A stretch of DNA of 64,000 nt from Antedon mediterranea (lineage: Eukaryota > Echinodermata > Crinoidea > Comatulida > Antedonidae): positions 9,985,001 through 10,049,000 of the forward strand of contig NC_092674.1 in assembly GCF_964355755.1 (NCBI RefSeq). Reading direction: 5' to 3'. The translations under genes were made by a program, and so were the position numbers. Below, in pieces: positions 20,003 through 59,427 of this stretch (position 1 is its first letter; the number at the start of each line of letters is the position of its first letter). A model generated the notes under the pieces. It was not told the origin of the DNA. It saw only the letters and a program-made list of their open reading frames with translations, and did no database searches.

Positions 20003-20157
20003 ACTTGGTGGACCGGCGTGAAGTTGGTTACTTATTCCTTATTCGATATTCAATTTTTTTTGTGAAGTTGGATCCTTATTCGACATTCACATTCACATGT
20101 ATGGGGCGCAATATGTGTAATATTTTAATTAAATGATTTTATACTTACGGCTTAGAT

Positions 20158-23100
20158 TAACTAGGGCTATGATTTATAGTAGGGCTATAACTTCGTTATA
20201 AACGGCATGGACCGGTATGACGATACATGGGTTGGGGCGAGTAGGGTCCAGTCATTTCAGAAAAATACCTCTTACCCCGGTCCATGCCGTCTAGCTGTCA
20301 TTTTACGCCATTTTAAAACGTTACTACAATTTAAGGTTTTCATAAAAAATGCAAAGTAAACGTATGATGTATAGGGCTATAATTACGTTATAAACGGCAT
20401 GGACCGGGATGACGATACATTGGTTGGGGCTAGTAGGGTCCAGTAGTTTCAGAAAAATACCACTTGACCCGGTCCAGGCCGTCTAGCTGCCATTTCACGC
20501 CATTTTAAAACCTTACTACAATTTAACGTTTTTATAAAAAATGCAATATAACCGGATGAAATATAGGGCTATAATTACGTTATAAACGGCATGGACCGGG
20601 ATGACGATACATGGGTTGGGGCAAGTAGGGTCCAGTCAATTCAGAAAAATACCACTTGCCCCGGTCCATGCCGTCTAGCTATCATTTTACGCCATTTTAA
20701 ACGTTACTACAATTTAATTTTTTTTTTTTTATAAAAAATGCAATATAACCGGATGATATATAGGGCTATAATTACGTTATAAACGGCATGGACCGGGATG
20801 ACGATACATGGGTTGGGGCGAGTAGGGTCCAGTCATTTCAGAAAAATACCACTTGCCCCGGTTCATGCCGTCTAGCTGTCATTTTAAGCCATTTTAAAAC
20901 GTTACCGGTACTACAATTTAATTTTTTTAAATACAAAATGCAATATAACCGAATGATTTATAGGGGTATAATTACGTTATAAACGGCATGGACCGGGATG
21001 ACGATACATGGGTTGGGGCTAGTAGGGTCCAGTCGTTTCAGAAATATACCACTTGCCCCGGTCCATGCCGTCTAGCTGCCATTTCACGCCATTTTAAAAC
21101 CTTACTACAATTTAACGTTTTTATAAAAAATGCAATATAACCGGATGATATATAGGGCTATAATTACGTTATAAACGGCATGGACCGGGATGACGATACA
21201 TGGATTGGGGCGAGTAGGGTCCAGTCATTTCAGAAACATACCTCTTACCCCGGTCCATGCCGTCTAGCTGTCATTTTACGCCATTTTAAAACGTTACCGG
21301 TACTACAATTTAATTTTTTTAAATACAAAATGCAATATAACCGAATGATTTATAGGGGTATAATTACGTTATAAACGGCATGGACCGGCATGACGATACA
21401 TGGGTTGGGGCTAGTAGGGTCCAGTCGTTTCAGAAATATACCACTTGCCCCGGTCCATGCCGTCTAGCTGCCATTTCACGCCATTTTAAAACCTTACTAC
21501 AATTTAACGTTTTTATAAAAAATGCAATATAACCGGATGATATATAGGGCTATAATTACGTTATAAACGGCATGGACCGGGATGACGATACATGGATTGG
21601 GGCGAGTAGGGTCCAGTCATTTCAGAAACATACCTCTTACCCCGGTCCATGCCGTCTAGCTGTCATTTTACGCCATTTTAAAATGTTACTACAATTTAAG
21701 GTTTTCATAAAAAATGATATGTAAACGTATGATTTATAGGCCTATAATTACGTTATAAACGGCATGGACCGGGATGACGATACATGGGTTGGGGCAAGTA
21801 GGGTCCAGTCAATTCAGAAAAATACCACATGCCCCGGTCCATGCCGTCTAGCTATCATTTTACGCCATATTAAAACGTTACTACAATTTAACGTTTTTTT
21901 TTTTTTTTATAAAAAATGCAATATAACCGAATGATTTATAGGGCTATAATTACGTTATAAACGGCATGGACCGGGATGACGATACATGGGTTGGGGCTAG
22001 TAGGGTCCAGTCATTACAGAAAATTATCTCTTGCCCCGGTCCATGCCGTCTAGCTGCCATTTTACGCCATTTTAAAACGTTACTACAATTTACGGTTTTC
22101 TTTAATATAAAATGTAATATAACCGGATGATATATAGGGCTATAATTACGTTATAAACGGCATGGACCGGGATGACGATACATGGGTTGGGGCGAGTAGT
22201 GTCCAGTCATTTCAGAAAAATACCACTTGCCCCGGTCCATGCCGTCTAGCTGTCATTTTACGCCATTTTAAAACGTTACTACAATTTAAGGTTTTTATAA
22301 AAAATGCAATGTAAACGTATGATTTATAGGGCTATGATTACGTTATAAACGGCATGGACCGGGATGACGATACATGGGTTGGGGCTAGTCTGGTCCAGTT
22401 GTTTCAGAAAAATACCACTTGCCCCGGTCCATGCCGTCTAGCTGTCATTTTACGCCATTTTAAAACGTTACTAAAATTTACGTTTTTTTAAATAAAAAAA
22501 TCAATATAACCGGATGATATATAGGGCTATAATTACGTTATAAACGGCATGGACCGGGATGACGATACATGGGTTGGGGCGAGTAGGGTCAAGTAATTAC
22601 AGAAACATACTTCTTGCCCCGGTCCATGCCGTCTAGCAGCCATTTTACGCCATTTTAAAACGTTACTACAATTTACGGTTTTTTTTTATATAAAATGTAA
22701 TATAACCGGATGATATATACGTGATAATTACGTTATAAACGGCATGGACCGGGATGACGATACATGGGTTGGGGCGAGTAGGGTCATTTCAGAAAAATAC
22801 CACTTGCCCCGGTCCATGCCGTCTAGCTGTCATTTTACGCCATTTTAAAACGTTACTACAATTTAAGGTTTTTATAAAAAATGCAATGTAAACGTATGAT
22901 TTATAGGGCTATGATTACGTTATAAACGGCATGGACCGGGATGACGATACATGGGTTGGAGCTAGTCTGGTCCAGTTGTTTCAGAAAAATACCACTTGCT
23001 CCGGTCCATGCCGTCTAGCTGTCATTTTACGCCATTTTAAAACGTTACTAAAATTTACGTTTTTTTAAATAAAAAAATCAATATAACCGGATGATATATA

Positions 23101-26100
23101 GGGCTATAATTACGTTATAAACGGCATGGACCGGGATGACGATACATGGGTTGGGGCGAGTAGGGTCCAGTAATTACAGAAACATACTTCTTGCCCCGGT
23201 CCATGCCGTCTAGCAGCCATTTTACGCCATTTTAAAACGTTACTACAATTTACGGTTTTTTTTTATATAAAATGTAATATAACCGGATGATATATACGTG
23301 ATAATTACGTTATAAACGGCATGGACCGGGATGACGATACATGGGTTGGGGCGAGTAGGGTCATTTCAGAAAAATACCACTTGCCCCGGTCCATGCCGTC
23401 TAGCTGTCATTTTACGCCATTTTAAAACGTTACTACAATTTAAGGTTTTTATAAAAAATGCAATGTAAACGTATGATTTATAGGGCTATGATTACGTTAT
23501 AAACGGCATGGACCGGGATGACGATACATGGGTTGGGGCTAGTCTGGTCCAGTTGTTTCAGAAAAATACCACTTGCTCCGGTCCATGCCGTCTAGCTGTC
23601 ATTTTACGCCATTTTAAAACGTTACTAAAATTTACGTTTTTTTAAATAAAAAATTCAATATAACCGGATGATATATAGGGCTATAATTACGTTATAAACG
23701 GCATGGACCGGGATGACGATACATGGGTTGGGGCTAGTAGGGTCCAGTAGTTTCAGAAAAATACCACTTGACCCGGTCCAGGCCGTCTAGCTGCCATTTC
23801 ACGCCATTTTAAAACCTTACTACAATTTAACGTTTTTATAAAAAATGCAATATAACCGGATGAAATATAGGGCTATAATTACGTTATAAACGGCATGGAC
23901 CGGGATGACGATACATGGGTTGGGGCGAGTAGGGTCCAGTCATTTCAGAAAAATACCACTTGCCCCGGTTCATGCCGTCTAGCTGTCATTTTAAGCCATT
24001 TTAAAACGTTACCGGTACTACAATTTAATTTTTTTAAATACAAAATGCAATATAACCGAATGATTTATAGGGGTATAATTACGTTATAAACGGCATGGAC
24101 CGGGATGACGATACATGGGTTGGGGCTAGTAGGGTCCAGTCGTTTCAGAAATATACCACTTGCCCCGGTCCATGCCGTCTAGCTGCCATTTCACGCCATT
24201 TTAAAACCTTACTACAATTTAACGTTTTTATAAAAAATGCAATATAACCGGATGATATATAGGGCTATAATTACGTTATAAACGGCATGGACCGGGATGA
24301 CGATACATGGATTGGGGCGAGTAGGGTCCAGTCATTTCAGAAACATACCTCTTACCCCGGTCCATGCCGTCTAGCTGTCATTTTACGCCATTTTAAAATG
24401 TTACTACAATTTAAGGTTTTCATAAAAAATGATATGTAAACGTATGATTTATAGGGCTATAATTACGTTATAAACGGCATGGACCGGCATGACGATACAT
24501 GGGTTGGGGCAAGTAGGGTCCAGTCAATTCAGAAAAATACCACATGCCCCGGTCCATGCCGTCTAGCTATCATTTTACGCCATATTAAAACGTTACTACA
24601 ATTTAACGTTTTTTTTTTTTTTATAAAAAATGCAATATAACCGAATGATTTATAGGGCTATAATTACGTTATAAACGGCATGGACCGGGATGACGATACA
24701 TGGGTTGGGGCTAGTAGGGTCCAGTCATTACAGAAAATTATCTCTTGCCCCGGTCCATGCCGTCTAGCTGCCATTTTACGCCATTTTAAAACGTTACTAC
24801 AATTTACGGTTTTCTTTAATATAAAATGTAATATAACCGGATGATATATAGGGCTATAATTACGTTATAAACGGCATGGACCGGGATGACGATACATGGG
24901 TTGGGGCGAGTAGGGTCCAGTCATTTCAGAAAAATACCACTTGCCCCGGTCCATGCCGTCTAGCTGTCATTTTACGCCGTTTTAAAACGTTACTACAATT
25001 TAAGGTTTTTATAAAAAATGCAATGTAAACGTATGATTTATAGGGCTATGATTACGTTATAAACGGCATGGACCGGGATGACGATACATGGGTTGGGGCT
25101 AGTCTGGTCCAGTTGTTTCAGAAAAATACCACTTGCTCCGGTCCATGCCGTCTAGCTGTCATTTTACGCCATTTTAAAACGTTACTAAAATGTACGTTTT
25201 TTTAAATAAAAAATTCAATATAACCGGATGATATATAGGGCTATAATTACGTTATAAACGGCATGGACCGGGATGACGATACATGGGTTGGGGCGAGTAG
25301 GGTCCAGTCATTACAGAAACATACTTCTTGCCCCGGTCCATGCCGTCTAGCTGCCATTTTACGCCATTTTAAAACGTTACTACAATTTACGGTTTTTTTT
25401 TATATAAAATGTAATATAACCGGATGATATATAGGGCTATAATTACGTTATAAACGGCATGGACCGGGATGACGATACATGGATTGGGGCGAGTAGGGTC
25501 ATTTCAGAAAAATACCACTTGCCCCGGTCCATGCCGTCTAGCTGTCATTTTACGCCATTTTAAAACGTTACTACAATTTAAGGTTTTTATAAAAAATGCA
25601 ATGTAAACGTATGATTTATAGGGCTATGATTACGTTATAAACGGCATGGACCGGGATGACGATACATGGGTTGGGGCTAGTCTGGTCCAGTTGTTTCAGA
25701 AAAATACCACTTGCTCCGGTCCATGCCGTCTAGCTGTCATTTTACGCCATTTTAAAAGGTTACTACAATTTACGTTTTTTTAAATAAAAATATCAATATA
25801 ACCGGATGATATATAGGGCTATAATTACGTTATAAACGGCATGGACCGGGATGACGATACATGGGTTGGGGCGAGTAGGGTCCAGTCATTACAGAAACAT
25901 ACTTCTTGCCCCGGTCCATGCCGTCTAGCTGCCATTTTACGCCATTTTAAAACGTTACTACAATTTACGGTTTTTTTTTATATAAAATGTAATATAACCG
26001 GATGATATATAGGACTATAATTACGTTATAAACGGCATGGACCGGGATGACGATACATGGGTTGGGGCGAGTAGGGTCCAGTCATTTCAGAAAAATACCA

Positions 26101-29100
26101 CTTGCCCCGGTCCATGCCGTCTAGCTGTCATTTTACGCCATTTTAAAACGTTACTACAATTTAAGGTTTTCATAAAAAATGCAATGTAAACGTATGATTT
26201 ATAGGGCTATAATTACGTTATAAACGGCATGGACCGGGATAAAGATACATGGGTTGGGGCAAGTAGGGTCCAGTCAATTCAGAAAAATACCACTTGCCCC
26301 GGTCCATGCCGTCTAGCTATCATTTTACGCCATTTTAAAACGTTACTACAATTTAACGGGTTTTTTTTTTTTATAAAAAATGCAATATAACCGAATGATT
26401 TATAGGGCTATAATTACGTTATAAACGGCATGGACCGGGATGACGATACATGGGTTGGGGCTAGTATGGTCCAGTTGTTTCAGAAAAATACCACTTGCCC
26501 CGGTCCATGCCGTCTAGCTGTCATTTTACGCCATTTTAAAACGTTACTAAAATTTACGTTTTTTTAAATAAAAAATACAATATAACCGAATGATTTATAA
26601 GGCTAAAATTACGTTATAAACGGCATGGATCGGGATGACGATACATGGGTTGGGGCAAGTATGGTCCATTCGTTTCAGAAAAATACCACTTGCCCCAGTC
26701 CATGCCGTCTAGCTGTCATTTTACGCCATTTTAAAACGTTACTACAATTTAACGTTTTTAAAATAAAAAATGCAATATAAACGCATGATATAATAGGGCT
26801 ATAATTACGTTATAAACGGCATGGACCGGGATGACGATACATGGGTTGGGGCGAGTAGGGTCCAGTCATTTTAGAAAAATACGACTTGCCCCGGTCCATG
26901 CCGTCTAGCTGTCATTATACGACATTTTAAAACGTTACTACAATTTAAGTTTTTTTAAATAAAAAATGCAATGTAAACCTATGATTTATAGGGCTATAAT
27001 TACGTTATAAACGGCATGGACCGGGATGAAGATACATGGGTTGGGGCAAGTAGTGTCCAGTCAATTCAGAAAAATACCACTTGCCCCGGTCCATGCCGTC
27101 TAGCTGTCATTTTACGCCATTTTAAAACGTTACTACAATTTAGCGTTTTTAAAATAAAAAATGCAATATAAACGCATGATATAATAGGGCTATAATTACG
27201 TTATAAACGGCATGGACCGGGATGACGATACATGGGTTGGGGCGAGTAGGGTCCAGTCATTTCAGAAAAATATGACTTGCCCCGGTCCATGCCGTCTAGC
27301 TGTCATTTTACGACATTTTAAAACGTTACTACAATTTAAGTTTTTTTAAATAAAAAATGCAATATAACCGAATGATTTATAGGGATATAATTACGTTATA
27401 AACGGCATGGACCGGGATGACGATACATGGGTTGGGGCAAGTAGGGTCCAGTCATTTCAGAAAAATACCACTTGCCCCGGTCCATGCCGTATAGCTGTCA
27501 TTTTACGCCATTTTAAAACGTTACTACAATTTAAGGTTTTCATAAAAAATGCAATGTAAACGTATGATTTATAGGGCTATAATTACGTTATAAACGGCAT
27601 GGACCGGGATGAAGATACATGGGTTGGAGTAAGTAGTGTCCAGTCAATTCAGAAAAATACCACTTGCCCCGGTCCATGCCGTCTAGCAATCATTTTACGC
27701 CATTTTAAAACGGTACTACAATTTAACTTTTTTTTTGAATAAAAAATGCAATATAACCGAATGATTTATAGGGCTATAATTACGTTATAAACGGTATGGA
27801 CCGGGATGACGATACATGGGCTGGGGCCAGTATGGTCCAGTTGTTTCAGAAAAATACCACTTGCTCCGGTCCATGCCGTCTAGCTGTCATTTTACGCCAT
27901 TTTAAAACGTTACTAAAATTTACGTTTTTTTAAATAAAAAGTGCAATATAACCGAATGATTTTTAAGGCTATAATTACGTTATAAACGGCATGGACCGGG
28001 ATGACGATACATGGGTTGGGGCGAGTAGGGTCCAGTCATTTTAGAAAAATACCTCTTACCCCGGTCCATGCCATCTAGCTGTCATTTTACGCCATTTTAA
28101 AACGTTACTACAATTTAAGGTTTTCATAAAAATGCAATGTAAACGTATGATGTATAGGGCTATAATTACGTTATAAACGGCATGGACCGGGATGACGATA
28201 CATGGGTTGGGGCAAGTAGGGTCCAGTCAATTCAGAAAAATACCACTTGCCTCGGTCCATGCCGTCTAGCTATCATTTTACGCCATTTTAAACGTTACTA
28301 CAATTTAATTTTTTTTTTTTTTATAAAAAATGCAATATAACCGGATGATATATAGGGCTATAATTACGTTATAAACGGCATGGACCGGGATGACGATACA
28401 TGGGTTGGGGCGAGTACGGTCCAGTCATTTCAGAAAAATACCACTTGCCCCGGTTCATGCCGTCTAGCTGTCATTTTAAGCCATTTTAAAACGTTACCGG
28501 TACTACAATTTAATTTTTTTAAATACAAAATGCAATATAACCGAATGATTTATAGGGGTATAATTACGTTATAAACGGCATGGACCGGGATGACGATACA
28601 TGGGTTGGGGCTAGTAGGGTCCAGTCGTTTCAGAAATATACCACTTGCCCTGGTCCATGCCGTCTAGCTGCCATTTCACGCCATTTTAAAACCTTACTAC
28701 AATTTAACGTTTTTATAAAAAATGCAATATAACCGGATGATATATAGGGCTATAATTACGTTATAAACGGCATGGACCGGGATGACGATACATGGATTGG
28801 GGCGAGTAGGGTCCAGTCATTTCAGAAACATACCTCTTACCCCGGTCCATGCCGTCTAGCTGTCATTTTACGCCATTTTAAAATGTTACTACAATTTAAG
28901 GTTTTCATAAAAAATGCAATGTAAACGTATGATTTATAGGGCTATAATTACGTTATAAACGGCATGGACCGGGATGACGATACATGGGTTGGGGCAAGTA
29001 GGGTCCAGTCAATTCAGAAAAATACCACATGCCCCGGTCCATGCCGTCTAGCTGTCATTTTACGACATTTTAAAACGTTACTACAATTTAAGTTTTTTTA

Positions 29101-30186
29101 AATAAAAAATACAATATAACCGAATGATTTATAAGGCTAAAATTACGTTATAAACGGCATGGACCGGGATGACGATACATGGGTTGGGACGAGTAGCGTC
29201 CAGTCATTTCAGAGAAATACCACTTGCCCCGGTCTATGCCGTCTAGCTGTCATTTTACGCCATTTTAAAACGTTACTACAATTTAAGGTTTTCATAAAAA
29301 ATGCAATGTAAACGTATGATTTATAGGGCTATATTTACGTTATAAACGGCATGGACCGGGATGAAGATACATGGGTTGGGGCAAGTAGGGTCCAGTCAAT
29401 TCAGAAAAATACCACTTGCCCCGGTCCATGCCGTCTAGCTATCATTTTACGCCATTTTAAAACGTTACTAAAATTTACGTTTTTTTAAATAAAAAATGCA
29501 ATATAACCGAATGATTTATAAGGCTATAATTACGTTATAAACGGCATGGACCGAGATGACGATACATGGGTTGGGGCAAGTATGGTCCAGTCAATTCAGA
29601 AAAATACCACTTGCCCCGGTCCATGCCGTCTAGCTGTCATTTTACGCCATTATAAAACGTTACTACAATTTAACGTTTTTAAAATAAAAAATGCAATATA
29701 AACGCATGATATAATAGGGCTATAATTACGTTATAAACGGCATGGACCGGGATGACGAGACATGGGTTGGGGCTAGTAAGGTCCAGTCGTTTCAGTAAAA
29801 TACCACTTGACCCGGTTCATGCCGTCTAGCGGCCATTTCACGCCATTTTAAAACGTTACTACAATTTAACTTTTTTATAAAAAATGCAATATAACCGGAA
29901 GATATAATTATAGGGCTATAATTACGTTATAAACGGCATGGACCGGGATGACGATACATGGGTTGGTGCGAGTAGGGTCCAGTCATTATAGAAAAGTACC
30001 ACTTGCCCTGGTCTATGCCGTCTAGTTGTCATTTTACGCCATTTTAAAACGTTACTACAATGTAACGTTTTTAAAAATAAAAAATGCACTATAAACGTAT
30101 GGTTTATAGGGCTATAATTACGTTATAAACGGCATGGACCGGGATGACGATACATTGATTGGGGTAAGTAGGGTCCAGTCATTTCA
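20158..30186 (+). repeat. Satellite 1, left arm: about 51 monomers of 192-200 bp
   Basis: The unit is recognised by TTACGTTATAAACGGCATGG, then ATGACGATACATGGGTTGGGG, then CCGGTCCATGCCGTCTAGC, with TTTTACGCCATTTTAAAACG near its end. Unit starts were measured at 20204, 20396, 20588, 20785 and 20985. Each unit has a 15-bp inverted pair (for example 20983-20997 and 21057-21071) able to form a hairpin. Blocks repeat in higher-order form: three-monomer steps of about 575 bp (22330, 22908, 23482) and a 3107-bp step (20788 and 23895). Confidence 0.95.
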
Positions 30187-33100
30187 CCCACGTATCGTCT
30201 TCCCGGTCCATGCCGTTTATAACGTAATTATAGCCCTATAAATCATGTGTTTATATTCCATTTTTTAATTTAAAAAACGTTCAATTGTAGTAACGTTTTA
30301 AAATGGCGTAAAATGGCAGCTAGACGGTATGGACAGGGGCAAGTGGTCTTTTTCTATAATGACTGGACCCTACTCGCCCCAACCCATGTATCGTCATCCC
30401 GGTCCATGCCGTTTATAACGTAATTATAGCCCTATATATCATCCGTTTATATTGCATTTTTTATAAAAACGTTAAATTGTAGTAACGTTTTAAAATGTCG
30501 TAAAATCGCAGCTAGACGGCATGGACCGGGGCAAGTGGTATTTTTCTGAAACGACTGGACCCTACTAGCCCCAACCCATTTTTTGTCATCCCGGTCCATG
30601 CCGTTTATTACGTAATAATAGCCCTATAAATCATGTGTTTATATTCCATTTTTTAATTTAAAAAACGTTAAATTGTAGTAACGTTTTAAAATGGCGTAAT
30701 ATGAAAGCTAGACGGCATGGACCGGGGCAAGTGGTATTTTTCCGAAATGACTGGACACTACTCGCCCCAACCCATATATCGTCATCCCTGTCCATGCCGT
30801 TTATAACGTAATTATAGCCCTGTAAATCATATGTTTATATTGCATTTTTTAATTTAAAAATCGTTAAATTGTAGTAACGTTTTAAAATGGCGTAAAATGA
30901 CAGCTAGACGGCATGGACCGGGGCAAGTGGTATTTTTCTGAAATGACTGGACCCTGCTAGCCCCAACCCATGTATCGTCATCCCGGTCCATACCGTTTAT
31001 AACGTAATTATAGCCCTATATATCATCCGGTTATATTGCATTTTTTATAAAAAAAAAATTAAATTGTAGTAACGTTTAAAATGGCGTAAAATGACAGCTA
31101 GACGGCATGGACCGGGGTAAGAGGTATTTTTTTTAAATGACTGGACCCTACTCGTCCCAACCCATGTATCGTCATCCCGGTCCATGCCGTTTATAACGTA
31201 ATTATAGCCCTATATATCATCCGGTTATATTGCATTTTTTATAAAAACGTTAAATTGTAGTAAGGTTTTAAAATGGCGTGAAATGGCAAGTAGACAGCAT
31301 GGACCGGGTAAAGTGGTATTTTTCTGAAACTACTGGACCCTACTAGCCCCAACCCATGTATCGTCATCCCGGTCCATGCCGTTTATAACTTAATTATAGC
31401 CTTATAAATCATTCGGTTATATTGCATTTTTTATTTTTAAAAATTAAATTGTAGTACCGGTAACGTTTTAAAATGGCGTAAAATGACAGCTAGACAGCAT
31501 GGACCGGGAAAAGTGGTATTGTTATGCAATGACTGGACCCTACTCGACCCAACCCATGTATCGTCATCCCGGTCCATGCCGTTTATAACGTAATTATAGC
31601 CCTATATATCATCCTGTTATATTGCATTTTTTATTTTAAAAAACGTTAAATTGTAGTAACGTTTTAAAATGGCGTAAAATGACAGCTAGACGGCATGGAC
31701 CGGGACAAGTGGTATTTTTCTGAAACTACTGGACCCTACTAGCCCCAACCCATGTATTGTCATCCCGGTCCATGCCGTTTATAACGTAATTATAGCCCTA
31801 TAAATCATTCGGTTATATTGCATTTTTTATAAAAAAAACGTTAAATTTTAGTAACGTTTTATAATGGCGTTAAATGATAGCTAGACGGCATAGACCGGGG
31901 CAAGTGGTATTTTTCTGAAATGACTGGACCCTACTCGCCCCAACCCATGTATCGTCATCCCGGTCCATGCCGTTTATAACGTAATTATAGCCCTATATGT
32001 CATCCGGTTATATTCTATTTTTCATTTAAAAAAAACTTAAATTGTAGTAACGTTTTAAAATGGCGTAAAATGGCAGCTAGACAGCATGGACCGGGGCAAG
32101 TGGTATTTTTCTGAAACGACAGGAACCTACTAGCCCCAACCCATGTATCGTCATCCCGGTCCATGCCGTTTATAACGTAATTATAGCCCTCTATATCTTC
32201 CGGTTATATTGCATTTTTTTATAAAAAAAAAACTTAAATTGTAGTAACATTTTAAAATGGCGTAAAATGGCAGCTAGACGGTATGGACCAGGGCAAGTAG
32301 TACTTTTCTATAATGACTGGATGCTACTCGCACCAACCCATGTATCGTCATCCCGGTCCATGCCGTTTATAACGTAATTATAGCCCTATATATCATCCGG
32401 TTATATTGCATTTTTTATAAAAAAGTTAAATTGTAGTAACGTTTTAAAATGGCGTGAAATGGCCGCTAGACGGCATGGACCGGGTCAAGTGGTATTTTTC
32501 TGAAACGACTGGACCCTACTAGCTCCAACCCATGTATCGTCATCTCGGTCCATGCATGCCGTTTATAACGTAATTATAGACCTAAAAATCATTCAGTTAT
32601 ATTGCATTTTTTATATAAAAAAAAACGTTAAATTGTAGTAACGTTTTAAAATGGCGTAAAATGATAGCTAGACGGCATGGACCGGGGCAAGTGGTATTTT
32701 TCTGAATTGACTGGACCCTACTTGACCCAACCCATGTATCGTCATCCCGGTTCATGTCGTTTATAACGTAATCATAGACCTATAAATCATTCGGTTATAT
32801 TGCATTTTTTATAAAAAAAAAAACACGTTAAATTGTAGTAATGTTTTAAAATGGCGTAAAATGATAGCTAGACGGCATGGACCGGGGCAAGTGGTATTTT
32901 TCTGAATTGACTGGACCCTACTTGCCCCAAACCATGTATCGTCATCCCGGTCCATGCCGTTTATAACGTAATTATAGCCCTATAAATCATATGTTTACAT
33001 TGCATTTTTTATGAAAACCTTAAATTGTAGTAACGTTTTAAAATGGCGTAAAATGACAGCTAGACGGCATGGACCGGGGCAAGAGGTATTTTTCTTAAAT

Positions 33101-36100
33101 AACTGGACCCTACTTGCCCCAACCCACGTATCTTCATCCCGGTCCATGCCGTTTATAACGTAATTATAGCCCTATATTTCATCAGGTTCTATTGCATTTT
33201 TTATAAAAACGTTTAAATTGTAGTAAGGTTTTAAAATGGCGTGAAATGGCAGCTAGACGGCATGGACCGGGTCAAGTGGTATTTTTCTGAAACTACTGGA
33301 CCCTACTAGCCTCAACCCATGTATCGTCATCCCGGTCTATGCCGTTTATAACGTAATTATAGCCCTATAAATCATTCGGTTATATTGCATTTTGTATTTA
33401 AAAAAAAATTAAATTGTAGTACCGGTAACGTTTTGAAATGGCGTAAAATGGCAGCTAGACGGCATGGACCGGGGCAAGTGGTATTTTTCTGAAACGACAG
33501 GACCCTACTAGCCCCAACCCATGTATCGTCATCCCGGTCCATGCCGTTTATAACGTAATTATAGCCCTATAAATCATACGGTTATATTGCATTTTTTATA
33601 AAAAAAAAACTTAAATTGTGGTAACGTTTTAAAATGGCGTAAAATGGCAGCTAGACGGCATGGACAGGGACAAGTGGTATATTTCTGAAACGACTGGACC
33701 CTACTAGCCCCAATCCATGTATCGTTATCCCGGTCCATGCCGTTTATAACGTAATTATAGCCCTATAAATCATTCGGTTATATTGCAATTTTTATAAAAA
33801 AAGACGTTAAATTGTATTAATGTTTTAAAATTGCGTAAAATGATAGCTAGACGGCATGGACCGGGGCAAGTGGTATTTTTCTGAATAGACTGGACCCTAC
33901 TTGCCCCAACCCCGTGTATCGTCTTCCCGGTCCATGCTGTTTATAACGTAATTATAGCCCTATAAATCATACGTTTATATTGCATTTTTTATGAAAACCT
34001 TAAATTGTAGTCGCGTTTTAAAATGGCGTAAAATGACAGCTAGACAGCATGGACCGGGGCAAGTGGTATTTTTCGAAAATGACTAGACCCTACTCGTCCC
34101 AACCCATGCATCGTCATCCCGGTCCATGCCGTTTATAACGTAATTATAGCCCTATAAATCATACGTTTATAGTGCATTTTTTATTTTTAAAAACCTTAAA
34201 TTGTAGTAACCTTTTAAAATGGCGTAAAATGACAGCTAGACGGCATGGACCGGGGCAAGTGGTACTTTTCTATTATGACTGGACCCTACTAGCACCAACC
34301 CATGTATCGTCATCCCGGTCCATGCCGTTTATAACGTAATTATAGCCCTATATATCATCCGGTTATGTTGCATTTTTTATAAAAAAAGTTAAATTGTAGT
34401 AACGTTTTAAAATGGCGTGAAATGGCCGCTAGACGGCATGAACCGGGTCAAGTGGTTTTTTCTGAAACAACTGGACCCTACTAGCCTCAACCCATGTATC
34501 GTCATTCCGGTCCATGCCGTTTATAACGTAATTATAGCCCTATAAACCATTCGGTTATATTGCATTTTTTATTTAAAAAAACGTTAAATTGTAGTAACGT
34601 TTTAAAATGGCGTAAAATGATAGCTACACGGCATGGACCGGGGCAAGCGGTATTTTTCTGAATTGACTGGACCCTACTTGCCCCAACCCATGTATCGTCA
34701 TCCCGGTCCATGCCGTTTATAACGTAATTATAGCCCTATAAATCATATGTTTACATTGCATTTTTTATGAAAACCTTAAATTGTAGTAACGTTTTAAAAT
34801 GGCGTATAATGACAGTTAGACGGCATGGACCGGGGTAAGAGGTATTTTTCTTAAATGACTGGACCCTACTCGCCCCAACCCATGTATCGTCATCCCGGTC
34901 CATGCCGTTTATAACGTAATTATAGCCCTATATTTCATCAGGTTATATTGCATTTTTTATAAAAACGTTAAATTGTAGTAAGGTTTTAAAATGGCGTGAA
35001 ATGGCAGCTAGACGGCATGGACCGGGTCAAGTGGTATTTTTCTGAAACTACTGGACCCTACTAGCCCCAACCCATGTATCGTCATCCCGGTCCATGCCGT
35101 TTATAACGTAATTATAGCCCTATAAATCATTCGGTTATATTGCATTTTGTATTTAAAAAAATTAAATTGTAGTAACAGTAACGTTTTAAAATGGCTTAAA
35201 ATGACAGCTAGACGCATGGACCGGGGCAAGTGGTATTTTTCTTAAATGAATGGACCCTATTCGCCCCAACCCATGTATCGTTGTCCCGGTCCATGCCGTT
35301 TATAACGTAATTATAGCCCTATATATCATCTTGTTATATTGCATTTTTTATTTAAAAAAACGTTAAATTGTAGTAACGTTTTGAAATGGCGTAAAATGAT
35401 AGCTAGACGACATGGACCGGGGCAAGTGGTATTTCCTGAATTGACTGGACCCTACTTGCCCCAACCGATGTATCGTCATCCCGGTCCATGCCGTTTATAA
35501 CGTAATTATAGCCCTATAAACCATTCGGTTATATTGCATTTTTTATTTAAAAAAACGTTAAATTGTAGTAACGTTTTAAAATGGCGTAAAATGATAGCTA
35601 GACGGCATGGACCGGGGCAAGTGGTATTTTTCTGAATTGACTGGACCCTACTTGCCCCAACCCATGTATCGTCATCCCGGTCCATGCCGTTTATAACGTA
35701 ATTATAGCCCTATAAATCATATGTTTACATTGCATTTTTTATGAAAACCTTAAATTGTAGTAACGTTTTAAAATGGCGTATAATGACAGCTAGACGGCAT
35801 GGACCGGGGTAAGAGGTATTTTTCTTAAATGACTGGACCCTACTTGCCCCAACCCATGTATCGTCATCCCGGTCCATGCCGTTTATAACGTAATTATAGC
35901 CCTATATTTCATTAGGTTATATTGCATTTTTTTGATAAAAACGTTAAATTGTAGTAAGGTTTTAAAATGGCGTGAAATGGCAGCTAGACGGCATGGACCG
36001 GGTCAAGTGGTATTTTTCTGAAACTACTGGACCCTACTAGCCCCAACCCATGTATCGTCATCCCGGTCCATGCCGTTTATAACGTAATTATAGCCCTATA

Positions 36101-37878
36101 AATCATTTGGTTATATTGCATTTTGTATTTAAAAAAATTAAATTGTAGTAACAGTAACGTTTTAAAATGGCTTAAAATGACAGCTAGACGGCATGGACCG
36201 GGGCAAGTGGTATTTTTCTGAAATGAATGGACCCTACTCGCCCAACCCATGTATCGTTATCTCGGTCCATGCCGTTTATAACGTAATTATAGCCCTATAT
36301 ATCATCCTGTTATATTGCATTTTTTATTTAAAAAAACGTGAAATTGTAGTAACGTTTTGAAATGGCGTAAAATGATAGCTAGACGGCATGGACCGGGGCA
36401 AGTGGTATTTTTCTGAATTGACTGGACCCTACTTGCCCCAACCGATGTATTGTCATCCCGGTCCATGCCGTTTATAACGTAATTATAGCCCTATAAATCA
36501 TTCGGTTATATTGCATCTTTTATATAAAAAAAACGTTAAATTGTAGTAACGTTTTAAAATGGCGTAAAATGATAGCTAGACGGCATGGACCGGGGCAAGT
36601 GGTATTTTTCTGAATTGACTGGACCCTACTTGCCCCAACCCATGTATCGTCATCCCGGTCCATGCCGTTTATAACGTAATTATAGCCCTATACATCATAC
36701 GTTTACATTGCATTTTTTATGAAAACCTTAAATTGTAGTAACGTTTTAAAATGGCGTAAAATGACAGCTAGACGGCATGGACCGGGGTAAGAGGTATTTT
36801 TCTGAAATGACTGGACCCTACTCGCCCCAACCCATGTATCGTCATCCCGGTCCATGCCGTTTATAACGTAATTATAGCCCTATAAATCATACGTTTACAT
36901 TGCATTTTTTATGAAAACCTTAAATTGTAGTAACGTTTTAAAATGGCGTAAAATGACAGCTAGACGGCATGGACCGGGGTAAGAGGTATTTTTCTGAAAT
37001 AACTGGATCCTACTCGCCCCAACCCATGTATCGTCATCCCGGTCCATGCCGTTTATAACGTAATTATAGCCCTATATTTCATCCGGTTATATTGCAATTT
37101 TTATAAAAACGTGAAATTGTAGTAAGGTTTTAAAATGGCGTGAAATGGCAGCTAGACGGCATGGACCGGGGTAAGAGGTATTTTTCTGAAATAACTGGAC
37201 CCTACTAGCCCCAACCCATGTATCGTCATCCCGGTCCATGCCGTTTATAACGTATTTATAGCCCTATAAATCATTCGGTTACATTGCATTTTTTATTTTT
37301 AAAAATTAAATTGTAGGACCGGTAACGTTTTAAAATGGCGTAAAATGACAGCTAGACGGCATGGACCGGGGCAAGTGGTATTTTTCTAAAATGACTGGAC
37401 CCTACTCGCCCCAACCCATGTATCGTCATTCCGGTCCATGCCGTTTATAACGTAATTATACCCCTATATATCATCCTGTTATATTGAATTTTTTATTTAA
37501 AAAAACGTTAAATTGTAGTAACGTTTTAAAATGGCGTAAAATGACAGCTAGTAGACGGCATGGACCGAGGCAAGTGGTATTTTTCTGAAACGACAGGACC
37601 CTACTAGCCCCAACCCATGTATCGTCATACCGGTCCATGCCGTTTATCACGTAATTATAGCCCTATAAATCATCCGGTTATATTGCATTTTTTATTTTAA
37701 AAAACGTTAAATTGTAGTAAGGTTTTAAAATGGCGTAAAATGACAGCTAGACGGCATGGACCGGGGCAAGTGGTATTTTTCTGAAACGACTGGACCCTAC
37801 TAGCCCGAACCCATGTATCGTCATCCCGGTCCATGCCGTTTATAACGAAGTTATAGCCCTATAAATCATAGCCCTAGT
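30187..37878 (-). repeat. Satellite 1, right arm: about 39 monomers in reverse orientation
   Basis: From 30187 the same monomer reads on the opposite strand (CCCGGTCCATGCCGTTTATAA, then CGTAATTATAGCCC). The switch is abrupt: the forward unit breaks off after CAGTCATTTCA at 30186 and the reverse unit begins within its ATCGTC block. The arm continues to the right terminal unique sequence at about 37879. Arms differ in length (10.0 against 7.7 kb), so they have expanded or contracted separately. Confidence 0.94.
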
Positions 37879-38035
37879 TAATCTAAGCCGTAAGTATAAA
37901 ATCATTTAATTAAAATAGTACACATATTGCGCCCCATACATGTGAATGTGAATGTCGAATAAGGATCCAACTTCACAAAAAAAATTGAATATCGAATAAG
38001 GAATAAGTAACCAACTTCACGCCGGTACTTGGTGG

Positions 38036-38141: not shown

Positions 38142-39072
38142 GTCTAGCCGGCGCTAGTTCCGTTTCGCACCTGTCGTTTATTTCGACTCAAAATTGGTTA
38201 AGTAACTTTATCGTGAGTACCACACCTTAGAATTAGGCCTCAAAAATACTTTTACGAAGGAGATCACACAAAAAGTAAAAAATAAATCCTTTAAATTGAT
38301 GAATTTACAGACGTGTTTCTCGCACATCGGTTTGTGAATTTCGCATACTCCATGTTCAATGTTGTTGTTTTTATGGAGCGCCAAAAGAGCAATCATAATA
38401 GAGGGCTAAAAACTCAGTAAATTGCGTATATTTATTGCATTTATTGGTGAAAATTACGTTCAATTTATCATATTTTGTCAATGTCAATGCAACAAAAATA
38501 TTACTGTTGATACTGTACATGGTTTTTGCAGGAACTTTTAGGAATGAAAATCGACAAATTCATCATCATATTACATGTACTGCTGTAGGGGTATACCTGA
38601 TAGTGATACTAATCTAAATAATATTCCTCTTAGTCTAGGCTATAGTCTTACTCTTAGTTAGGCCTAGGGTTGGTTGCTATTTGAAAACAGCAAATTATTA
38701 GCATTAAAATGTTACAGCATTTTTATTGACAAAATATATTATAATTAAACGTGTATTTCAATAATAAATGCATCAAGACGCATTCCACTGAGTTTTTAAC
38801 CATCTATTGTTGTTGCTCTTTTGGCGCTCCATAGAAACGAAAATATTGAACTTCGAGTGTTAGCTAAATTCGCGAACGGTATGCGAGAATCATGTCTGTA
38901 AAATCATCAATTTAAGGATTTATTTGTTACTTTTTATGTGATTCTTCTTCATAAAAGTACTCATGAGGCCCAATTTTAAGGTGTGGTATTCACAATAAGT
39001 TGCTTAACAATTTGGAGTCAAAAGGAAGTCGAAATAAAAACAGGTGCGAAACGGAACTAGCGCCGTCTAGCC
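38142..39072. mobile_element. Foldback element B (915 bp) with 8-bp target-site duplication
   Basis: The element is 38150-39064 and is flanked by GTCTAGCC at 38142-38149 and 39065-39072. The ends GGCGCTAGTTCCGTTTCGCA and its exact inverse form arms of more than 250 bp with gaps. Interior blocks ACCACACCTTAGAATTAG, TTACAGACGTG, CTCGCACA and GGAGCGCCAAAAGAGCAA are shared with foldback A, while the outermost ends differ. Non-coding. Because the flank is CTAG-rich, the 8-bp duplication is slightly less certain than in A. Confidence 0.85.
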
Positions 39073-39157: not shown

Positions 39158-39299
39158 CGTATACCGCTTGTGTCAAGCTAGCCGACAATAAGCCAGCCCA
39201 CTTTTATTTTTTCCAGCCGACAATAAGTATGAAACGCCGTTTGTGTATTTTTCACATTTTCAGTATTGCTTAAGGTTTTTATAGTATTAGAAATTCAAT

Positions 39300-42200
39300 A
39301 TTTGTGAGAAAATGGCGGATTGCTCCTGGGAGTCACTTGGTGGGATTATACTAGGGGACCTCCTTAATCGTCAAGTATAAGTTAGAGTAGAACCGCTGGT
39401 CCTGTTTACTCAGCCCTCATCTTTGAAATTTGAGTGTAACTCAATTTCGATTTTTAATATTATAGTGAAATTTGATACTGTATTTGTGAGAAAATGGCGG
39501 ATTGCTCCTGGGAGTCACTTTGTGGGATTATACTAGGGTACCTCCTTAGTCGTCCAGTATAAGTTAGGGTGGGACCACTGGTCCCGTTTACTCAGCCCTC
39601 ATCTTTTAAATCTGAGTGTAACTCAATTACGATTTTTAATATTATAGTGAAATTTGATACTGTATTTGTGAGAAAATGGCGGATTGCTCCTGGGAGTCAC
39701 TTGGTGGAATTATACTTGGGTACCTCCTTAGTCGTCCAGTATAAGTTAGAGTAGGACCGCTGGTCCTGTTTACTCAGCCCTCATCTTTTAAATCTGAGTG
39801 TAACTCAATTACGATTTTTAATATTATAGTGAAATTTGATACTGTATTTGTGAGAAAATGGCGGATTGCTCCAGGGAGTCACTTGGTGGGATTATACTAA
39901 GGTACCTCTTTGGTCGTCCAGTATAAGTTAGAGTAGGACCGCTGGTCTTGTTTACTCAGCCCTCATCTTTTAAATCTGAGTGTAACTCAATTACGATTTT
40001 TAATATTATAGTAAAATTTGATACTGTATTTGTGAGAAAATGGCGGATTGCTCCTGTGAGTCACTTGGTTGGATTATACTATAGGGTACCTCCTTAGTCG
40101 TCCAGTATAAGTTAGAGTAGGACCGCTGGTCCTGTTTACTCAGCCCTCATCTTTTTTAATCTGAGTGTAACTCAATTACGATTTTAAATATTATAGTGAA
40201 ATTTGGTACTGTATTTGTGAGAAAACGGCGGATTGCTCCTGGGAGTCACTTGGTGGGATTATACTAGGGGACCTCCTTAATCGTCAAGTATAAGTTAGAG
40301 TAGAACCGCTGGTCCTGTTTACTCAGCCCTCATCTTTGAAATTTGAGTGTAACTCAATTTCGATTTTTAATATTATAGTGAAATTTGATACTGTATTTGT
40401 GAGAAAATGGCGGATTGCTCCTGGGAGTCACTTTGTGGGATTATACTAGGGTACCTCCTTAGTCGTCCAGTATAAGTTAGGGTGGGACCACTGGTCCCGT
40501 TTACTCAGCCCTCATCTTTTAAATCTGAGTGTAACTCAATTACGATTTTTAATATTATAGTGAAATTTGATACTGTATTTGTGAGAAAATGGCGGATTGC
40601 TCCTGGGAGTCACTTGGTGGAATTATACTTGGGTACCTCCTTAGTCGTCCAGTATAAGTTAGAGTAGGACCGCTGGTCCTGTTTACTCAGCCCTCATCTT
40701 TTAAATCTGAGTGTAACTCAATTACGATTTTTAATATTATAGTGAAATTTGATACTGTATTTGTGAGAAAATGGCGGATTGCTCCAGGGAGTCACTTGGT
40801 GGGATTATACTAAGGTACCTCTTTGGTCGTCCAGTATAAGTTAGAGTAGGACCGCTGGTCTTGTTTACTCAGCCCTCATCTTTTAAATCTGAGTGTAACT
40901 CAATTACGATTTTTAATATTATAGTAAAATTTGATACTGTATTTGTGAGAAAATGGCGGATTGCTCCTGTGAGTCACTTGGTTGGATTATACTATAGGGT
41001 ACCTCCTTAGTCGTCCAGTATAAGTTAGAGTAGGACCGCTGGTCCTGTTTACTCAGCCCTCATCTTTTTTAATCTGAGTGTAACTCAATTACGATTTTAA
41101 ATATTATAGTGAAATTTGGTACTGTATTTGTGAGAAAACGGCGGATTGCTCCTGGAAGTCACTCGGTGGGATTATACTAGGGTACCTCCTTAGTCGTCCA
41201 GTATAAGTTAGAGTAGGACCGCAGGTCTTGTTTACTCAGCCCTCATCTTTTAAATCTGAGTGTAACTCAATTACGACTTTTTAATATTATAGTGAAATTT
41301 GATACTGTATTTGTGAGAAAATGGCGGATTGCTCCTGGGAGTCACTTGGTGGGATTATACTAGGGTACCTCCTTAGTCGACCAGTATAAGATAGGGTGGG
41401 ACCACTGGTCCCGTTTACTCAGCCCTCATCTTTTAAATCTGAGTGTAACTCAATTACGATTTTTAATATTATAGTGAAATTTGATACTGTATTTGTGAGA
41501 AAATGGCGGATTGCTTCTGGGGGTCACTTGGTGGGATTATACTAGGGTACCTCCTTAGTCATCCAGTATAAGTTAGAGTAGGACCACTGGTCCTGTTTAC
41601 TCAGCCCTCATCTTTTAAATCTGAGTGTAACTCAATTACGATTTTAAATATTATAGTGAAATTTGGTACTGTATTTGTGAGAAAACGGCGGATTGCTCCT
41701 GGAAGTCACTCGGTGGGATTATACTAGGGTACCTTCTTAGTCGTCCAGTATAAGTTAGAGTAGGACCGCTGGTCTTGTTTACTCAGCCCTCATCTTTGAA
41801 ATCTGAGTGTAACTCAATTACGATTTTTAATATTATAGTGAAATTTGGTACTGTATTTGTGAGAAAACGGCGGATTGCTCCTGGAAGTCACTCGGTGGGA
41901 TTATACTAGGGTACCTCCTTAGTTGTCTAGTATAAGTTAGAGTAGGACCACTGGTCCTGTTTACTCAGCCCTCATCTTTTAAATCTGAGTGTAACTCAAT
42001 TACGATCTTTAATATTATAGTGAAATTTGATACTGTATTTGTTAGAAAATGGTGGATTGCTCCCAGGAGTCACTTGGTGGGATTATACTAGGGGACCTCC
42101 TTAATCATCCAGTGTAAGTTAGAGTATGACCGCTGGTCCCGTTTACTCAGCCCTCATCTTTTAAATCTGAGTGTAACTCAATTACGATTTTTTATATAGT

Positions 42201-45200
42201 GAAATTTGATACTGTATTTGTGAGAAAATGGCGGATTGCTCCTGGGAGTCACTTGGTGAGATTATACTAGGGTACCTCCTTAGTCGACCAGTATAAGTTA
42301 GGGTAGGACCGCTGGTCTTGTTTACTCAGCCCTCATCTTTTTAAATCTGAGTGTAACTCAATTACGATTTTAAATATTATAGTGAAATTTGGTACTGTAT
42401 TTGTGAGAAAACAGCGGATTGCTCCTGGAAGTCACTCGGTGGGATTATACTAGGGTACCTCCTTAGTCGTCCAGTATAAGTTAGAGTAGGACCGCTGGTC
42501 TTGTTTACTCAGCCCTCATATTTTAATCTGAGTGTAACTCAATTACGATTTTTAATATTATAGGGAAATTTGGTACTGTATTTGTGAGAAAACGGCGAAT
42601 TGCTCCTGGAAGTCACTCGGTGGGATTATACTAGGGTACCTCCTTAGTTGTCCAGTATTTAAGTGAGAGTAGGACCGCTGGTTATGTTTACTCAGCCCTC
42701 ATCTTTTAAATCTGAGTGTAACTCAATTACGATCTTTATTATTATAGTGAAATTTGATACTGTATTTGTGAGAAAATGGCGGATTGCTCCTGGGAGTCAC
42801 TTGGTGGGATTATACTAGGGGACCTCCTTAATCGTCCAGTATAAGATAGAGTAGGACCGCTGGTCCCGTTTACTCAGCCCTCATCTTTTAAATCTGAGTG
42901 TAACTCAATTACGATTTTTTATATAGTGAAATTTGATACTGTATTTGTAAGAAAATGGCGGATTGCTCCTGGGTGTCACTTGGTGGGATTATACTAGGGG
43001 ATCTCCTTAATCGTCCAGTATAAGTTAGAGTAGGACCGCTGGTCCCGTTTACTCAGCCCTCATCTTTTAAATCTGAGTGTAACTCAATTACAATTTTTTA
43101 TATAGTGAAATTTGATACTGTATTTGTGAGAAAATGGCGGATTGCTCCTGGGAGTCACTTGGTGAGATTATACTAGGGTACCTCCTTAGTCGTCCAGTAT
43201 AAGTTAGAGTAGGACCGCTGGTCTTGTTTACTCAGCCCTCATCTTTTAAATCTGAGTGTAACTCAATTACGATTTTAAATATTATAGTGAAATTTGGTAC
43301 TGTATTTGTGAGAAAACGGCGGATTGCTCCTGGAAGTCACTCGGTGGGATTATACTAGGGTACCTCTTTAGTTGTCCAGTATCAGTTAGAGTAGGACCGC
43401 TGGTCCTGTTTACTCAGCCCTCATCTTTTAAATCTGAGTGTAACTCAATTACGATTTTTAATATTATAGTGAAATTTGATACTGTATTTGTGAGAAAATG
43501 GCGGATTGCTCCTGGGAGTCACTTGGTGGGATTATACTAAGGTACCTCTTTGGTCGTCCAGTATAAGTTAGAGTAGGACCGCTGGTCTTGTTTACTCAGC
43601 CCTCATCTTTTAAATCTGAGTGTAACTCAATTACGATTTTTAATATTATAGTAAAATTTGATACTGTATTTGTGAGAAAATGGCGGATTGCTCCTGTGAG
43701 TCACTTGGTTGGATTATACTAGGGTACCTCCTTAGTCGTCCAGTATAAGTTAGAGTAGGACCGCTAGTCCTGTTTACTCAGCCCTCATCTTTTTAAATCT
43801 GAGTGTAACTCAATTACGATTTTAAATATTATAGTGAAATTTGGTACTGTATTTGTGAGAAAACGGCGGATTGCTCCTGGAAGTCACTCGGTGGGATTAT
43901 ACTAGGGTACCTCCTTAGTCGTCCAGTATAAGTTAGAGTAGGACCGCAGGTCTTGTTTACTCAGCCCTCATCTTTTAAATCTGAGTGTAACTCAATTACG
44001 ACTTTTTAATATTATAGTGAAATTTGATACTGTATTTGTGAGAAAATGGCGGATTGCTCCTGGGAGTCACTTGGTGGGATTATACTAGGGTACCTCCTTA
44101 GTCGTTCAGTATAAGTTAGGGTGGGACCACTGGTCCCGTTTACTCAGCCCTCATCTTTTAAATCTGAGTGTAACTCAATTACGATTTTTAATATTATAGT
44201 GAAATTTGATACTGTATTTGTGAGAAAATGGCGGATTGCTCCCAGGAGTCACTTGGTGGGATTATACTAGGGGACCTCCTTAATCGTCCAGTATAAGTTA
44301 GAGTTGGACCGCTGGTTCCGTTTACTCAGCCCTCATCTTTTAAATCTGAGTGTAACTCAATTACAATTTTTTATATAGTGAAATTTGATACTGTATTTGT
44401 GAGAAAATGGCGGATTGCTCCTGGGAGTCACTTGGTGGGATTATACTAGGGTACCTCCTTAGTCGTCCAGTATAAGTTAGAGTAGGACCGCTGGTCCTGT
44501 TTACTCAGCCCTCATCTTTTAAATCTGAGTGTAACTCAATTACGATTTTAAATATTAAAGTGAAATTTGGTACTGTATTTGTGAGAAAACGGCGGATTGC
44601 TCCTGGAAGTCACTCGGTGGGATTATACTAGGGTACCTCCTTAGTTGTCCAGTATCAGTTAGAGTTGGACCGCTGGTCTTGTTTACTCAGCCCTCATCTT
44701 TTAAATCTGAGTGTAACTCAATTACGATTTTTAATATTATAGTGAAATTTGATACCGGTACTGTATTTGTGAGAAAATGGCGGATTGCTCCTGGGAGACA
44801 CTTGGTGGGATTATACTTAGGGTACCTCCTTAGTCGTCCAGTATAAGATAGGGTGGGACCACTGGTCCCGTTTACTCAGCCCTCATCTTTTAAATCTGAG
44901 TGTAACTCAATTACGATTTTTAATATTATAGTGAAATTTGATACTGTATTTGTGAGAAAATGGCGGATTGCTTCTGGGGGTCACTTGGTGGGATTATACT
45001 AGGGTACCTCCTTAGTCATCCAGTATAAGTTAGAGTAGGACCACTGGTCCTGTTTACTCAGCCCTCATCTTTTAAATCTGAGTGTAACTCAATTACGATT
45101 TTAAATATTATAGTGAAATTTGGTACTGTATTTGTGAGAAAACGGCGGATTGCTCCTGGAAGTCACTCGGTGGGATTATACTAGGGTACCTTCTTAGTCG

Positions 45201-51200: not shown

Positions 51201-51414
51201 GTAGTCGTCCAGTATAAGTTAGGGTGGGACCACTGGTCCCGTTTACTCAGCCCTCATCTTTTAAATCTGAGTGTAACTCAATTACGATTTTTTATATAGT
51301 GAAATTTGAAACTGTATTTGTGAGAAAATGGCGAATTGCTCCTGGGAGTCACTTGGTGGGATTATACTAGGGTACCTCCTTAGTCGTCCAGTATAAGTTA
51401 GAGTAGGACCACTG
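39300..51414 (+). repeat. Satellite 2: about 66 monomers of 182 bp
   Basis: The unit contains ATGGCGGATTGCTCCTGGGA, GTCACTTGGTGGGATTATAC, GGGTACCTCCTTAGTCGTCC, GACCGCTGGTCCTGTTTAC and CTCAGCCCTCATCTTTTAAA. GCGGATTGC positions at 39315, 39497 and 39679 give a 182-bp period. Higher-order structure is strong. Five-monomer blocks of 913 bp repeat essentially exactly (39569 and 40482 carry identical 183-bp frames). A 3.46-kb (19-monomer) step links 41511, 44968 and 48427. Most units carry GGTACC and a GGACC-N3-GGTCC dyad. Confidence 0.95.
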
Positions 51415-51679
51415 GACAACTAAGGAGGTACCCTAGTATAATCCCACCGAGAGTGACTTCCAGGAGCAATCCGCCGTTTTCTCACAAATACAGTACCAAA
51501 TTTCACTATAATATTTAAAATCGTAATTGAGTTACACTCAGATTTAAAAAGATGAGGGCTGCTGAGTAAACAGGACCAGCGGTCCTACTCTAACTTATAC
51601 TGGACGACTAAGGAGGTACCCTAGTATAATCCCACCAAGTGACTCCCAGGAGCAATCCGCCATTTTCTCACAAATATTG
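51415..51679 (-). repeat. Satellite 2, short inverted arm (about 1.4 monomers)
   Basis: Orientation flips at about 51414: GGACCACTGG is followed at once by ACAACTAAGGAGGTACCCTA, the reverse strand of the unit. Only about 265 bp of inverted satellite precede the right terminal repeat. Giant element 2 is therefore a very asymmetric foldback, compared with element 1. Confidence 0.9.
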
Positions 51680-51832
51680 AATTTCTAATACTATAAAAAC
51701 CTTAAGTAATACTGAAAATGTGAAAAATACACAAACGGCGTTTCATAGTTATTGTCGGCTGGAAAAAATAAAAGTGGGCTGGCTTATTGTCGGCTGGCTT
51801 ATTGTCGGCTAGCTTGACACAAGCGCGTATAC

Positions 51833-53467: not shown

Positions 53468-53789
53468 TCTTTCTCTGCGTATGCACATTTGGCATAAAAT
53501 GAGAGAACAATGTCGTTTCGTCTGTATGTCCGCCGTATTCCGGTGTGGCTTAACATTAAATAAAACTAGATAAGCAAACATTTCTATTTCATGTGTATCA
53601 TTTTTATTAGTTAACCATGGTAGAAACAAAAGTAAATCTACACTGTTTTAAAACATATTAATACATAAACTAAATACAGTAGTCCTAAACAATATTTATA
53701 ATAATGAATTATATCTTACTAGTACGACTAAGTTTTTCATCGAAAAATTATAGAATGTTGATGCAGCCAGTAAAAGAAATTCTGAAATA
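53468..53789. other. AT-rich spacer between minisatellites
   Basis: Nothing recognised; a last degenerate TCGTCTGTATGTCCG unit occurs at 53518-53532. Confidence 0.5.
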
Positions 53790-55235: not shown

Positions 55236-55550
55236 TTACATTAACTGATACCGTAGCTTGCAATTCTGCATGTGAAGTGTTTGCAACTTAGGTGCCTTTT
55301 TCAAGAAGGTGACCAGTAAAGTAGCATTAATGTCACCTAAATCATTATTGCCAATATAAAGTTCTTGTATACGCTATCATCATTTCATTCATTACGTCAC
55401 CTGATAGTTTGCAACCATTCATACCAAGTAAAGTACCATCAATGTCACTGATACAATTACCCCAAATAGAAAGTTCTTGTAGTGCCAACTCATTTACTCC
55501 ATACACTCTCATCATTTCATTCATTACGTCACCTGATATGTTGCAACTGT
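55236..55550 (-). pseudogene. Frameshifted LRR tail of the NLR gene
   Basis: Directly after the NLR stop, the LRR pattern goes on in a second frame from 55554 (MNSCNISGDVMNEMMRVYG, then ALQELSIWGNCISDIDG). It changes frame again near 55370 to give ELYIGNNDLGDINATLL and KKAPKLQTLHMQNC, ending at a stop at 55236-55238. One repeat is shortened by a deletion (DGTLLG joined to MNGCKLSG). The tail could be the lost C-terminus, or the frame breaks could be assembly errors. Confidence 0.75.
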
Positions 55551-59419: not shown

Positions 59420-59427
59420 CTGTAAAA

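Follow-up and report, generated by a model that had tools for sequence, protein, structure and literature searches.

Two neighbouring foldback-type elements enclose long satellite arrays in a crinoid genome

It has long been asked how satellite arrays come to occupy new places on chromosomes. Classical foldback elements have inverted arms of tandem repeats, built from units much shorter than those reported below, and are flanked by 8–9 bp duplications, while Mutator superfamily elements produce target-site duplications (TSDs) of 8–11 bp. The closest known system to the elements analyzed here is Tetris of Drosophila virilis, described as having a terminal domain on the outside, inverted arms in which a ~220-bp unit is repeated in tandem, and TSDs of 8–10 bp, from which its authors argue toward the Mutator superfamily (PMC4079207). 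In that account, Tetris has no conserved open reading frames (ORFs), its assembled arrays contain as many as 66 repeats, fibre-FISH reveals long arrays between two terminal domains, and larger arrays may have disrupted transposition (PMC4079207). Tandem repeats in foldback-like terminal repeats have also been proposed to act as secondary transposase sites (PMC3573991), and, for the TCAST transposon-like elements of Tribolium, a related sequence is reported to bear a mariner-type transposase domain (PMC3411249).

Here we analyzed a 64,000-nucleotide stretch of the Antedon mediterranea genome (the window), in which two intact, TSD-flanked elements with satellite arms, A and B, lie ~1.1 kb apart. 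They provide a directly testable case in which the jump of a whole array can be set against the insertion of a small element followed by growth.

Element A spans positions 20012–38026 (18,015 bp). A 9-bp duplication, ACTTGGTGG, abuts both outer edges in direct orientation (20003–20011 and 38027–38035, both +), and the inverted ends, i.e., ACCGGCGTGAAGTTGG and its complement, lie immediately inside it. The left terminal inverted repeat (20012–20179, +) is non-satellite sequence. Its right counterpart (37859–38026, −, BLAST limits) matches it over 168 bp at 99.4% identity and overlaps the TRF-defined satellite end by ~10 bp, and a gapped alignment of the two yields one substitution in 165 columns plus one 3-bp indel. 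When used as a BLAST query, the left end returned two matches in the window, both being A’s own ends. Subterminal direct repeats are present in the left terminal repeat (GTGAAGTTGG at its positions 7 and 51, TCCTTATTCGA at 25 and 62). The sequences flanking the two duplications are unlike each other and are not mirror images.

The interior of A is a single satellite (TRF), running forward from 20180 to 30186 and inverted from 30186 to 37869, and no unique spacer was seen by eye between the arms at ~30186. Wrap-around alignment of the ~194-bp monomer identified 52 monomers in the left arm (20180–30186, +) and 41 in the right arm (30186–37868, −), of which 51 and 39, i.e., 90 overall, are full. 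An earlier note on this stretch had placed ACTTGGTGG exactly outside both ends and described these ends as perfect inverses, and both statements hold at the positions given above. The near-identical terminal sequence it put at ~150 bp is indeed present on both sides but extends over 165–168 bp, and the interior it described is one satellite in opposed arms with a monomer of ~194 rather than ~195 bp.

The two arms of A differ in length and have diverged by ~8.5% in sequence, with mean pair identities of 0.922 and 0.910 within arms and 0.915 between arms. Monomer-run analysis, which we used to detect block duplications in both A and B, identified a block of 11 monomers repeated at a distance of 14 monomers in the left arm of A (98.8% identity), and a 7-monomer block recurring 5 monomers away in the right arm (98.4%). 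Of the 90 full monomers, 71 had their nearest neighbour within their own arm, compared to ~45 expected without regard to arm. The remaining 19, together with inverted matches between the arms that reach 793 bp at 95% identity, show that the two arms have exchanged sequence or share ancestry further back in time. On the two sides, the outermost monomers are 91.7% alike, close to the average left–right pair (0.915), so that identity falls sharply where the terminal repeat ends.

The monomer of A includes a near-complementary 18-bp inverted repeat, and the fold of a single monomer was more stable than expected (z −2.6; none of 200 shuffles equally stable). The 14-bp hairpin arms are better conserved (0.99 and 0.98) than the rest of the monomer (0.94), and 57 of the 90 monomers retain perfectly matching arms. 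However, none of these 57 displayed a compensatory change, and we therefore rejected a conserved hairpin structure in favour of sequence conservation as the safer reading. We also rejected a derivation of the monomer from the terminal repeat, since no significant similarity between the two was found in A or in B (p from 0.21 to 0.99 across eight tests).

Element B (39165–51825, 12,661 bp) encloses the 182-bp satellite neighbouring A. Its inverted ends begin with CGCTTGTGTCAAGCTAGCC and are abutted on both sides by the 7-bp TSD CGTATAC (39158–39164 and 51826–51832, both +), which contains the palindrome GTATAC. The left terminal inverted repeat (39165–39298, +) carries AGCCGACAATAAG twice, 35 bp apart, and the right one (51678–51825, −) has one extra 15-bp unit; with this unit gapped, the two differ by 2 substitutions in 133 aligned columns. 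The left arm (39299–51415, +) comprises 67 monomers, 66 of them full, and is opposed by a short inverted right arm (51416–51677, −) of 262 bp, i.e., ~1.4 monomers. Blocks of 11 and 8 monomers are duplicated at a distance of 19 (98.9%), and a 5-monomer block recurs 5 monomers away (99.9%). The consensus of B folds no better than its shuffles. As in A, the terminal repeats of B carry subterminal direct repeats, which range from 10 to 19 bp across the two elements.

Between A and B sits a third foldback, C (38150–39064, no strand assigned), of 915 bp with imperfect arms of ~350 bp. Its flanking repeat reads GTCTAGCC (8 bp), or TCTAGC (6 bp) when the end is shifted outward by one base. When compared with one another, the ends of the three elements were not significantly similar (p = 0.60, 0.53, and 0.23), and nothing beyond 9-bp words is shared between the monomers of A and B. 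Given this lack of similarity in monomers and ends, we counted A and B as separate families, and an unrelated neighbour built to the same plan, which the earlier note had overlooked, is the strongest fact supporting the foldback reading of A.

Next, we evaluated how often such structures arise by chance. Scanning for exact inverted ends of at least 12 bp abutting a direct repeat of 7–10 bp retrieved only A and B from the window, compared to a total of 7 matches across 200 order-2 Markov shuffles; C was missed because its ambiguous border base pairs with its counterpart. A stricter scan (14-bp end, 7-bp repeat), which detects B and is blind to the 9-bp repeat of A, gave no match in 100 shuffles. 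Wide inverted-end scans were flooded by matches within the satellites, so that only the outermost rows were used, and among the matches listed 20 of 20 matching end bases were found only in A, B, and C. The 9-mer ACTTGGTGG itself recurs 31 times among the 67 monomers of the left arm of B and once in its right arm, against a background of 0.3% of 9-mers matching for the B consensus and 1.8% for the whole B array. We considered whether A had targeted a relic of the B satellite, but the empty site of A is no more B-like than shuffles (p = 0.65), and the recurrence is likely a coincidence.

The coding content of both elements is small. Counting ATG, GTG, and TTG starts, the longest internal ORF is 64 aa in A and 61 aa in B, and one 95-aa ORF begins outside A and crosses its left edge. 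Pfam searches with 15 distinct of the 23 stop-to-stop ORFs of at least 100 aa in the window identified no transposase domain, and Rfam, including ribozyme families, gave no match in the window at gathering thresholds. For the ORF at 5268–6683, no homologue was found at E 0.001. Elsewhere in the window, an ORF at 60470–61873 encodes a reverse transcriptase whose closest named relatives, among the best 120 of 1884 matches, are from echinoderms: Antedon mediterranea (91% identity, 35% of the query covered), Anneissia japonica (73% identity, 33% covered), and Amphiura filiformis (58% identity, 90% covered). Neither viral contigs, searched for an exact 26-bp pattern of the end, nor prokaryote contigs, searched for an exact 21-bp pattern of the monomer, gave a match, as expected for animal sequence.

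In both A and B, terminal inverted repeats surround opposed tandem arrays, and TSDs of 9 and 7 bp, respectively, abut both ends. The best reading is that they are non-autonomous DNA transposons of the foldback type, unrelated to each other, and that their arms have turned into satellite arrays. More specifically, we consider that A is one foldback insertion that landed with tens of diverged monomers aboard and grew afterwards, with B representing an unrelated family of the same build, and assign this reading a probability of roughly 0.6.

The order of events proposed for A comes from comparing the age of its array with that of its insertion. Between the terminal repeats, 1 site in 165 has changed (95% interval 0.02–3.3%). 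The average difference between full monomers is 8.4%, or 5.5–5.7% on conserved columns, the lower value being obtained once variable columns and a poly-T stretch are dropped. The probability of observing at most one change in 165 sites is 7e-4 at a divergence of 5.7%, and 1e-3 at 5.5%. Because the monomers have diverged far more than the terminal repeats, much of the array is probably older than the insertion. Among the 90 full monomers, 20, 37, or 43 lineages exceed the 3.3% bound under single, average, or complete linkage, respectively, such that ~4–8 kb of the satellite should predate the insertion, if terminal repeats keep time. In B, the same comparison gave 2 of 133 sites against 3.9% (P = 0.10), or 3 of 134 under an alternative count (P = 0.23).

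However, gene conversion between the terminal repeats of A could make the insertion look too young. With the outermost monomers only 91.7% alike, such conversion would need to have ended close to the terminal-repeat border, unless monomer turnover has wiped out its trace. At the same time, the multi-kb block duplications at ~99% identity show that the array kept growing later. The earlier proposal that the satellite moved as one unit is favoured for A by the divergence comparison, although conversion could mimic this signal and part of the array grew late.

Alternatively, a small foldback with few monomers may have inserted, and the arrays then grown in place through unequal exchange and the duplication of blocks. 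Such an order is preferred in the literature, growth after insertion having been proposed for Tetris (PMC4079207) and for tandem-repeat MITEs (PMC12628747). It also accommodates the block duplications at 98–99.9% identity in both elements, the excess of same-arm nearest neighbours in A, and the lopsided arms of B (67 vs. ~1.4 monomers), which are suggestive of one-sided growth. Unless conversion intervened, however, it conflicts with a monomer divergence of 5.5–8.4% in A next to a single changed site in 165 between its terminal repeats (P ~1e-3), and we regard it as less likely. In another scenario, a pre-existing satellite array would have been enclosed by two opposed short elements, the pair having moved together or merely looking like one element. 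The dissimilarity of terminal repeat and monomer means that the satellite need not stem from the element. Against this, the duplication sits outside the pair, no duplication was noticed by eye at the inner borders, and in both A and B the arms reverse within the array as in a foldback, making enclosure improbable.

Large inverted repeats are a recognised source of assembly error, and the array length could be mis-assembled; still, a right arm created by a folded-back or mis-joined read is very unlikely for A, with its non-mirrored flanks, a TSD that is direct and abuts both ends, arms of 52 and 41 monomers only 91.5% alike across arms on average, and the unrelated element B displaying the same plan. 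These same features, i.e., unlike flanks, a direct abutting duplication, and unequal, diverged arms, uphold the earlier note’s view of A as one TSD-flanked foldback-type element.

Returning to A as a single insertion that carried a diverged array, the process might have unfolded as follows. A transposase encoded elsewhere in the genome would have cut or copied A by its ends, possibly with the subterminal direct repeats in the terminal repeats of A and B serving as secondary binding sites. Joining of A to a staggered target cut would have generated the 9-bp duplication. The arms would already have held tens of diverged ~194-bp monomers on landing and then grown through multi-monomer block duplication inside each arm. 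The satellite would thereby represent passenger DNA, amplified partly before and partly after insertion. Since one copy each of A and B was seen in the 64-kb window, we infer the mobility of the 18-kb form, as we do the transposase, the move as one unit, and the order of growth and insertion. The TSD of B, at only 7 bp and with a palindrome inside it, and the lack of a transposase domain among the ORFs scanned also weigh against this reading. The 9-bp TSD of A fits the 8–11 bp range of Mutator-like elements while the 7 bp of B do not, and CGTATAC matches the 7-bp TSD length of the P superfamily, to which Galileo belongs.

Taken together, these observations suggest that satellite repeats can be carried along by mobile DNA. 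Much more tentatively, unrelated satellite arrays in this lineage may routinely be the cargo of giant (10–20 kb) foldback transposons that move with tens of monomers aboard. Transposition, and not only unequal exchange, would then spread ready-made arrays, and long opposed arms would not abolish mobility.

Several described systems share parts of this plan. Galileo, a Drosophila element of the P superfamily, has long terminal repeats with internal repetition, which in one subfamily takes the form of ~210-bp tandem repeats, and 7-bp flanking sequences as in B, yet is described with two or three repeats per arm and terminal repeats of up to ~1.26 kb in D. mojavensis (PMC3573991). The TCAST transposon-like elements of Tribolium carry satellite monomers in their terminal inverted repeats and a TSD in some copies, but the account given of them has a maximum of 1,181 bp, one nearly complete and one partial inverted monomer, and a 3-bp duplication (PMC3411249). 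Galileo and TCAST elements, as described, thus share parts of the plan of A and B at a much smaller size. According to a review, miDNA4 and Xstir, both of Xenopus, and a MITE of the clam Donax resemble A and B in holding an internal satellite array within a terminal-inverted-repeat element (PMC12628747). FB of D. melanogaster and the sea-urchin elements are called foldbacks in the Tetris paper, the latter in a mention only (PMC4079207). No kb-scale satellite foldback of the A and B kind from a crinoid or other echinoderm was found in the literature searched, which leaves many subscription papers outside.

The suggestion in the earlier note that A may be an undescribed class is not supported on comparison with Tetris, which, as described, has the same architectural plan (PMC4079207). 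There are differences: Tetris is described with terminal repeats reaching 1,735 bp and with a middle domain of its own, three copies being structurally complete and TSD-bearing, and its terminal domain and repeat share 37 bp (PMC4079207), a link that was not found in A or B. A and B are themselves TSD-bearing copies, with arms of up to ~10 kb and ~12 kb, respectively, and with no middle domain seen. Overall, the plan of A and B was already known, and what is new in the literature searched is its size with everything intact, no middle domain, and two unrelated families co-occurring: two sequence-resolved giant copies in a crinoid, ~1.1 kb apart, each with ends and TSDs preserved. Tetris prompted the suggestion that larger arrays may disrupt transposition; in A and B, the two ends and the two TSDs are preserved around ~93 and ~68 monomers, respectively, and the divergences in A hint that a large array can move.

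The second satellite in the window is enclosed by an inverted-repeat element of its own (element B, 39165-51825), which is bordered by a 7-bp duplication, CGTATAC, and whose 182-bp unit is present as 67 + ~1.4 monomers. The 9-bp duplication at both edges of element A, the neighbouring foldback-type element, recurs within this B satellite (39299-51677): ACTTGGTGG occurs 31 times in the left arm, across its 67 monomers, and once in the right arm. Comparing the A duplication site with the B satellite, we found no similarity beyond this 9-mer, and its presence in the B arms is probably coincidental. Between A and B lies a third foldback, the 915-bp element C (38150-39064), with a duplication of either 6 or 8 bp.

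The satellite monomer of element A (20180-37868) itself contains an 18-bp near-complementary inverted repeat with consensus arms TAAACGGCATGGACCGGG and CCCGGTCCATGCCGTCTA, the first of which falls within the monomer's most conserved 15-bp stretches. This repeat may be a protein-binding site.

Two further tandem arrays follow B: an imperfect ~86-bp array based on TTTCGTCTGTCTGTCC (52412-53425), and 7.1 copies of a 72-bp unit at 99% match (53785-54293), the latter probably young. On the plus strand, two separate ORFs (60470-62871), one encoding a reverse transcriptase and the other a zinc-binding RT-associated domain, look like a non-LTR retrotransposon remnant. A NACHT/leucine-rich-repeat frame occupies the minus strand at 55551-59444, open stop-to-stop over 1297 codons; the TRF repeat at 55422-57497, with 12.1 copies of a 171-bp (57-codon) unit at 91% match, suggests a coding-repeat expansion.
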